Below, piece after piece: positions 62,608 to 64,000 of a DNA stretch of 64,000 nucleotides. Origin of the DNA: Tepidanaerobacteraceae bacterium (GTDB lineage Bacteria > Bacillota > Thermosediminibacteria > Thermosediminibacterales > Tepidanaerobacteraceae); the NCBI GenBank assembly GCA_024655905.1, contig JANLFP010000005.1, forward strand, positions 124,001 through 188,000, read 5' to 3'. The notes under the pieces were generated by a model. The model searched no databases. It was not told where the DNA came from and worked only from the letters and a program-made list of their open reading frames with translations. Position numbers and translations under genes: made by a program. Numbering within the stretch: position 1 is the stretch's first letter; every line of letters begins with the position of its first letter.

Positions 62608-62636
62608 TTTACAAAATACTCGATAATTGGTATGAT
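62608..62636 (+). promoter_or_regulatory. sigma-A promoter of the actin-like/bactofilin operon
   Basis: TTTACA (62608-62613), 17 bases, TATGAT (62631-62636). The leader would be about 145 bases with no clear structure or gene. Confidence 0.6.
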
Positions 62637-62785
62637 AAAAGTTAGCAGGATAGAATGAAGACATATGCATAATGCAGAGAAAATCTTTGCCGTCGCACGG
62701 TAATTCATGCTTTAACACCGCGCTGGGGGAAATAAAAAGAAAGAGGGGCTGTTGTTGATTCTCAAATTTATAAGGAGGTTGGACA

Positions 62786-63826
62786 ATGGCACGATTGATA
62801 GGCATCGATGTGGGGTATGGTTTCGTGAAGGTTACCGACGGCGAGGCTGGATACTCATTTCCGAGCGTGGTGGGCGAAGGCCATACAAGACCGACTTTTA
62901 ACACGGGAGCGGATCGATTTTCGACCATCGATCATCTTAAGGTGGGCATGGGCAAAAAAATCTATTTTGTGGGCAAAGCGGCAATCAAACATTCCAGGTT
63001 TGTCTATAGGGACCTCTCCTACAACCGTTCTGCCGGAGAAGACTTTGAAATCCTTTTTTTCAGCGCGCTGAGCTTCTTTGCCGATGCAGCGTACAATGAG
63101 TTCAACGTGGTGACCGGCCTTCCGGTGGAAAGGATGCACATGGCGGACAGCCTCGCAAAGAGGGTCAAAGGCGAACGCTCAATTGCCCTTTTCGTCGAAG
63201 GTGGCAGCCGGGAGATTCGGCTGAATGTCAAAGAGGTGGAAATCGTTCCTCAGCCGCTTGGCACCTACTGGTCGCTTTTTTCCGGTCCAATGGGGCTCGA
63301 TGCCGCTGCCCCTGCCGAAGGCCGCATAGGCATAGTGGACATAGGTTTCAGGACTACAGATCTCGCCGCTCTTGAGGACTCCGAATTCATTCCCGAAAAA
63401 AGCAAATCCCTGACGGTGGGGCTGGCCACAGCATACAGCGAGATAGGCTTGAGCATCGCCGCCAGGTATGGTCTCGAAAAAGAAAGCTATTCACTGGACG
63501 GAATAGTCATTAAGCGCAGAATCAATATGGCTGGAGAATCCATTGACATAACCGACATCGTAAGCGAAGCCTTCGAAAAGCTGGCTACCAATATTCTTGT
63601 GGAAGTCAATTCTCAGTGGAGGCTGTCGGATTTCGACAGCATAATATTAAGCGGCGGCGGTGGACAGGCCATAAGCCAATACCTCCTGCCTCGGATTTCC
63701 CACGCGAAGCTTGCAGCCGATCCCATAACCGCCAATTGCCGGGGTTATCTCGCCTGGGCCAACCGGCTGTGGAATTCTCCATCCCGCATCGGACAGCCGC
63801 AGGAAGAGTATACCCCGCAGTCTTAG
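62786..63826 (+). CDS. ParM/StbA-like actin-family ATPase
   Basis: A 346-residue actin-fold protein of the bacterial ParM/Alp group. Phosphate-1 loop IGIDVGYGFVKVTDG lies at 5-19, FNVVTGLPVE near 107, phosphate-2 loop GIVDIGFRTTDLAAL near 185, and the adenosine motif IILSGGGGQAISQYL near 290. It should form ATP-driven filaments. AAGGAGG stands seven bases before the ATG. On plasmids such genes are followed by a ParR adaptor; here the next gene, 11 bases on, is a bactofilin, and no ParR-like gene or centromere-like repeat is seen. A chromosomal cytoskeletal role is therefore more likely than plasmid partition. Confidence 0.85.
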   Translation: MARLIGIDVGYGFVKVTDGEAGYSFPSVVGEGHTRPTFNTGADRFSTIDHLKVGMGKKIYFVGKAAIKHSRFVYRDLSYNRSAGEDFEILFFSALSFFADAAYNEFNVVTGLPVERMHMADSLAKRVKGERSIALFVEGGSREIRLNVKEVEIVPQPLGTYWSLFSGPMGLDAAAPAEGRIGIVDIGFRTTDLAALEDSEFIPEKSKSLTVGLATAYSEIGLSIAARYGLEKESYSLDGIVIKRRINMAGESIDITDIVSEAFEKLATNILVEVNSQWRLSDFDSIILSGGGGQAISQYLLPRISHAKLAADPITANCRGYLAWANRLWNSPSRIGQPQEEYTPQS

Positions 63827-63837
63827 GGTGGTATGCT

Positions 63838-64000
63838 TTGAGCAGGAATATATTAGAATTGCTGAGCATTCATCCGAATCAAGAAAACCGGCCCCGGCAA
63901 AACATGGGCTATGTGGAAATCAATGGAACATTCACAGGGGATATATATAATGGAATGAATGTATTCGTCGCCCCCTCCGGCTGTGTAAAAGGCAGCATTA
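63838..64000 (+). CDS. bactofilin (polymer-forming cytoskeletal protein), partial
   Basis: The first 54 codons before the window ends. After a 23-residue polar head the bactofilin beta-helix begins: GYVEINGTFTGDIYNGMNVF, then VAPSGCVKGSI. The G-x-I/V repeats and INGTFxGDI are typical of PF04519. The start is TTG at 63838 with AGGGTGG six bases upstream; the ATG at 63904 has none. Bactofilins assemble without nucleotide into filaments that shape cells or position proteins. It is cotranscribed with the actin-like ATPase. Confidence 0.7.
   Translation, partial: MSRNILELLSIHPNQENRPRQNMGYVEINGTFTGDIYNGMNVFVAPSGCVKGSI

Follow-up and report, generated by a model that had tools for sequence, protein, structure and literature searches.

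Active filaments of actin and passive filaments of bactofilin have been studied as separate bacterial skeletons. The gene pair described here, which encodes a ParM-type actin-like protein (ALP) and a bactofilin, resembles several known systems in part. Like the pair, plasmid ParMRC systems (R1, pSK41 and pCBH) combine an actin-like ATPase with a small oligomeric partner that has a conserved disordered C-terminal tail, and the available portion of PMC5016525 describes how this unstructured tail of ParR binds a hydrophobic pocket of ParM. In ParMRC, however, the partner is the DNA-binding ParR, and its parC array was not seen at the pair. Chromosomal ParMs (Dh-cParM1 and Cb-cParM; PMC12270681) share with the ALP the ParM fold, a chromosomal location and conservation beyond plasmids, but they are accompanied by a ribbon-helix-helix (RHH) cParR, and the word bactofilin is absent from the main text of that paper. 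CorM/CorR of Anabaena (PDB 9rmi), likened to the pair by its PDB title, joins a ParM-type filament close in fold to the ALP (Z 33.6) to a partner protein.

Bactofilins likewise occur in larger modules. According to the accessible part of PMC10945521, modules of a bactofilin and an M23 peptidase (BacA-LmdC) determine the shape of Hyphomonas and of spiral Rhodospirillum cells; these contain no actin-like gene, whereas the Halorhodospira-type loci described below are such a module plus an ALP. In Myxococcus, as excerpts of PMC12448750 and PMC9178275 describe it, the BacNOP bactofilin scaffold is coupled to an NTPase, as proposed for the pair, and the tail of BacP holds the PadC-binding site. Unlike in the pair, that NTPase is ParA, reached through PadC, and the tail motif is KKKVVVKK. 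The links described in the accessible sections of PMC9178275 and PMC7002697 are other than an ALP-bactofilin pairing, and no description of such a pair was found in the titles and listed abstracts of the open-licence papers searched, an absence that is not proof. The pair, with a C-terminal tag found only on paired bactofilins, points to a composite skeleton, as yet undescribed, in certain bacteria.

The actin-like gene and its bactofilin neighbour

The window, meaning the whole stretch of 64,000 nucleotides that was analysed (G000:C33:124001-188000), lies in a 3.2 Mb genome. Its features are collected in Table 1; coordinates in locus L002 are window coordinates minus 56000. The sequence-only reading of this DNA had proposed a ParM-type ATPase gene followed 11 bases later by a bactofilin, behind a shared promoter and in the place where ParR would be expected.

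Table 1. Features of the ALP-bactofilin locus in window coordinates
Feature	Position	Strand	Basis
Promoter-like TTTACA-17-TATGAT, 10/12, best on this strand	62608..62636	+	Promoter scan; not above chance
Ribosome-binding site AAGGAGG of the ALP	62772..62778	+	Direct sequence reading
ParM-type ALP, first gene of the pair, 346 aa	62786..63826	+	Pfam, model, fold matches
Ribosome-binding-like AGGGTGG of the bactofilin, overlapping the ALP stop	63825..63831	+	Direct sequence reading
Bactofilin, N-terminal part; continues past the window edge to window-equivalent 64482	63838..64000	+	Pfam Bactofilin

By sequence and fold, the first gene product is a member of the ParM-type actin-like proteins, as had been claimed. 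It matches Pfam ALP_N (2.2e-33) and MreB-like_C (4e-18), and same-kind ParMs rank first when solved structures are searched with its sequence. An AlphaFold2 model built on 51 rows (pLDDT 86.6, pTM 0.86) finds its top fold matches in Dh-cParM1 (Z 37.7), pCBH ParM (Z 34.2 and 33.9) and CorM, and gives Z near 25 against MreB and R1 ParM. D8-x-G10-Y11-G12, D185-x-G187-x-x-T190 and G290-G292, which we take to be the nucleotide-binding motifs of the actin superfamily, are invariant across the 51 rows, so that the actin-type motifs appear intact. A dN/dS of 0.09-0.11 against the ALPs of L007 and L009 indicates purifying selection. The same genome encodes a second ALP_N protein (L005; G000:C11:27467-27862) that by eye resembles mobile-element ParM/StbA; it lies among small repeated-family proteins and a protein with an M23-like C-terminus.

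The second gene was completed from the genome (L002:7838-8482). It encodes 214 residues ending ...KEVHFHSSF and passes the Pfam Bactofilin profile (E 1.1e-13, residues 24-100, 51.7 bits against a cut-off of 27.9), as do the partners of ALPs in 18/18 cases. The frame opens 11 bases past the ALP stop, as the sequence-only reading had it, and translation may start either at the TTG at 63838, with AGGGTGG ahead of it, or at the ATG at 63904; the bactofilin start in L007 likewise lies 11 bp past the ALP stop. The complete gene passes the bactofilin profile and relatives conserve the pair, so neither outcome named beforehand as fatal to that reading, a failed profile match or a pair lacking in relatives, applies. 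The shared promoter fared less well, as promoter-like sites are not enriched (4 observed against 3.1 ± 1.8 expected from shuffles). Directly 3' of the bactofilin stop, a fold test found a strong hairpin followed by TTTTC (MFE -20.9 kcal/mol, z -4.2; absent from the terminator scan output), which fits a two-gene operon. Beyond the hairpin is a convergent gene, named by eye as a histidine kinase.

Past its domain, the window bactofilin has a P-, A- and S-rich stretch of about 110 residues that runs to its end, HFHSSF. The nearest named relative by ALP (84% identity) is L036, from a Tepidanaerobacteraceae MAG, and its partner is a close homologue whose model has a beta-helix core at pLDDT about 97 between disordered flanks (about 50-65), including a short low-confidence N-terminal helix and a low-confidence tail. 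The best PDB matches of this model are Thermus bactofilin 6rib and 6ria, with Foldseek E-values of only 0.02-0.04. By eye, several partners start with MF, ML or MW and basic residues, comparable to MFSKQAKS of BacA in the excerpt available, and the window bactofilin starts with an amphipathic-looking SRNILELL. By analogy with BacA, the partner bactofilins may bind the membrane.

Distribution of the pair

Surveyed by gene neighbourhood, the ATPase family bears out the expectation that the pair is conserved in relatives, and places it in one clade. Among 101 genomes (the window's own and 100 relatives, 25 with an ALP match), the bactofilin is the next gene in 10/10 loci with downstream sequence and ALP identity of at least 52%, leaving aside L032, which is the rest of L014 after its frame break, and L015, which ends at a contig edge. 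Loci of that sample at 35% identity or less have no adjacent bactofilin. In a collection scan of 59 loci, a bactofilin adjoins the ALP in 24/26 at about 44-84% identity, namely 22 of the 24 from L036 to L059 (exceptions L043 and L058) plus L070 and the broken-frame L079. L065 ends at a contig edge, and the remaining loci of L062-L094, all at 38% or less, have an adjacent bactofilin in 0/30; some ALPs at this distance have partners that look ParR-like by eye. A phylum sample that partly overlaps the 101 genomes (398 genomes drawn evenly, 39 with a match at E <= 1e-30, 30 loci fetched) gave a bactofilin in 13/13 loci at 45% identity or more and in 0/17 at 38% or less.

In a tree of 46 ALPs, a single clade (100/100) gathers 29 linked rows together with 2 unlinked ones, and the remaining 15 orphans fall on the opposite side; a tree of 51 rows recovers a 25-row clade at 95/99, of which 23 are linked. 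The bactofilin-linked clade comprises Clostridia and relatives together with Halorhodospira-type Gammaproteobacteria, and G046 carries two ALPs in one genome, each with its own bactofilin. The MAGs of L043 and L058 (ALP identity 60-62%) hold one canonical bactofilin each and no tailed one. Four ALP-less Tepidanaerobacteraceae genomes (G002, G006, G010 and G012) likewise hold only a canonical, tail-less bactofilin each, and a fifth, G008, gave no bactofilin match. Two genes 3' of the bactofilin-less ALP of L058 (L058:7090-7892) look by eye like sporulation YtrH and YtrI. A Symbiobacterium MAG has two tandem ALP genes (L062:1341-3600) with no bactofilin nearby.

The order of Halorhodospira has an ALP match in 20/54 genomes. 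Eighteen of these are close, with 60-100% identity to the ALP of H. abdelmalekii and 40-46% to that of the window. A bactofilin lies 68-162 bp upstream of the ALP in 15/18 loci, and the other three have none nearby. The gene order is thus reversed, reading M23 peptidase, bactofilin, ALP: the peptidase gene precedes the bactofilin in 10 of the 15 (BLAST, within the fetched stretch), and the collection scan also places the bactofilin upstream in Halorhodospira L060 and L061. Genomes of the order that have no ALP hold bactofilins whose cores are 55-62% identical, and several of these adjoin the same M23 gene. Because these related M23-bactofilin genes exist there, the Halorhodospira-type ALP appears, from sequence comparison, to have joined a resident module. 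The 46-ALP tree settles no first-branching group between the Symbiobacteria-like and the gammaproteobacterial rows. In the wider Pseudomonadota, 24/398 genomes have a match at E <= 1e-30, one being the Halorhodospira centre genome; the other 23 are orphan ALPs (L216-L238; about 26-32%, starting DIGFGFTKA) with a bactofilin nearby in 0/23 loci. In Bacillota, an M23 gene is also beside the pair in L010 and L031. The gene row in L010 and in L111 (G026:C116:10220-13407) is ALP, tailed bactofilin, M23-like peptidase and a second, canonical bactofilin, so that in Bacillota, as well, the pair is tied to an M23 module.

The C-terminal tail of paired bactofilins

Beyond a long unalignable linker, ALP-adjacent bactofilins end in a conserved aromatic peptide. 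In Bacillota, 22/25 partners end F-x-x-[STV]-[FYVI]-COOH (36 partners reduced to 30 distinct and then to 25 below 70% identity). In a permutation test on the same sequences from which the motif was defined, with rows related by descent, the final six columns carry 16.3 bits, where random hexamers drawn from these tails give 3.36 ± 0.38, and 0/20,000 draws were as conserved. In Gammaproteobacteria, each of the 15 distinct partners has a Trp among its five C-terminal residues (WGRR, WGRH, WDRR, RRWR, RRWS). None of 47 distinct bactofilins encoded away from this ALP shows either pattern; they come from the same genomes, from ALP-less relatives (orthologues included) and from orphan-ALP genomes. 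The comparison leaves out open frames, duplicates and L119, L122, L123, L169 and L170, which are long proteins of other architecture or sub-threshold. Passages of PMC12448750 call the C-terminal tails of bactofilins 'typically poorly conserved', so the conservation of the partner tails is unusual.

The partners of L054, L057, L059 and L136 are without the exact motif. Judged by sequence, tail type follows ALP subclade, because the ALPs of these exceptions are Symbiobacteria-like and fall outside the F-tail group in the tree (support for that group 91/67). Several ALP residues also separate linked rows from others: W324 is present in 23/23 linked rows and 0/26 others, R116 in 100% against 0%, and W162 in 100% against 12%. 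W324 and W329 are on the last helix, the L043 ALP retains W324, and W324, W329 and Y161/W162 are candidate residues of an aromatic pocket.

Partners of distant ALPs have comparable ends. Those that look ParR-like end ...DNLISNF, ...DLLVDQF and ...NNIIENL, which are also hydrophobic or aromatic; two of these partners have no significant Pfam match, so the label ParR-like was given by eye. Downstream of two ALPs at 32% identity lie proteins on the minus strand (L149:1056-1475 and L150:1041-1472) whose resemblance to Hfq is weak and falls below the cut-off (E 0.004), with the ParR-like tails ...DNLVRNW and ...DQLVRNW. From their sequences, these are possibly another adaptor with a swapped head.

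A bactofilin as possible adaptor, and the alternatives

The reading we favour, with moderate confidence, is a chromosomal ParM-type actin with a bactofilin as adaptor in place of ParR. At the level of the sequences, there is an operon in one clade, with motifs intact in the ALP, a linker and tail on its partner and no such tail on the non-adjacent bactofilins compared. The bactofilin would self-assemble without nucleotide into a membrane- or wall-linked scaffold and display many C-terminal tails, clustered as ParR-parC clusters those of ParR. These tails would bind the ALP in an aromatic pocket, much as ParM receives the tail of ParR, and once bound could nucleate, cap or tether ATP-driven ALP filaments at the membrane. 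The most likely outcome would be the positioning of cell-wall enzymes or the shaping or organisation of the envelope. Such an envelope or shape role is suggested by analogy, because M23 genes adjoin the pair and M23-bactofilin modules control shape elsewhere (PMC10945521, in the part available). This lends indirect support to the use suggested in the sequence-only reading, namely shape or the placing of surface structures. Among Halorhodospira and its relatives, an ALP was probably acquired and then took on an M23-linked bactofilin already resident there, which evolved a Trp tail of its own.

The two proteins could instead be co-regulated neighbours that serve the same process but make no contact, the tail binding a wall enzyme, a division protein or a protease. 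Bactofilins do bind several clients, L043 and L058 retain the ALP without a paired bactofilin, and binding between ALP and bactofilin is a prediction from sequence. We consider this account unlikely nonetheless, since the tail is found only on ALP-adjacent bactofilins in two phyla, is absent from orthologues in ALP-less relatives and tracks the ALP subclade.

Another reading, to which we give a low probability, assigns the pair a role in DNA segregation or positioning: a scaffold of bactofilin would anchor a replicon or the chromosome, with the ALP acting as in ParMRC. It would agree with the fold of the ALP, which is closest to ParMs, and with the BacNOP bactofilins of Myxococcus, which organise ParABS via PadC (accessible part of PMC9178275). 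Against it, the locus has neither an adjacent RHH ParR nor a parC array. No RHH protein was found adjoining the pair in the window genome, where the next gene is the bactofilin, so the absence of ParR noted in the sequence-only reading stands. The 423 bases before the pair and the 218 bases after it showed no iterons; the upstream stretch has only one 14-nt two-copy repeat and the downstream stretch none. M23 genes beside the pair in several lineages also speak against a DNA role, as does the identity below 30% to plasmid and phage ParMs among the matches listed. A plasmid origin of the ALP was rejected (no match reached 60% among 1254 records, and the ten listed were at 24-28%), as was a phage origin (26.6-28.6% among the five matches listed of 39 phage records).

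That the two genes adjoin by chance or descent and are functionally unrelated is very improbable. Gene neighbours do persist by descent among close relatives, but the pair survives at ALP identities as low as about 45%, in differing gene surroundings, and re-forms in Gammaproteobacteria in reversed order with a different bactofilin.

Beyond the adaptor reading, a wider scheme can be put forward tentatively, and we lean slightly against it in its entirety. A composite cytoskeleton, in which an ATP-driven actin is captured by passive bactofilin tails, would have been born in Bacillota and, after transfer, rebuilt in Gammaproteobacteria around another bactofilin, whose Trp tail would be convergent. 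ParM-type actins would then use exchangeable adaptors with the tail constant: an RHH protein would serve DNA, a bactofilin the membrane or wall, and some adaptors might have an Hfq-like head (L149, L150). If actin and bactofilin are physically joined in a dedicated way, this would show how a machine of the ParM kind can move from DNA segregation to envelope work, and the pair would offer a two-protein system simple enough to reconstitute. Such a link would further suggest a role for chromosomal ParMs without ParR, and the C-terminal peptide motif is testable.

The two genes of the locus differ in their divergence. Between L002:7838-8482 and L009:2550-3197, dS is 0.34 for the bactofilin and 1.0 for the adjacent ALP. 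The tail of the window bactofilin is closer to that of L009 than to that of L007, though L007 is the closer relative; judged from these sequences, the tail has perhaps recombined.
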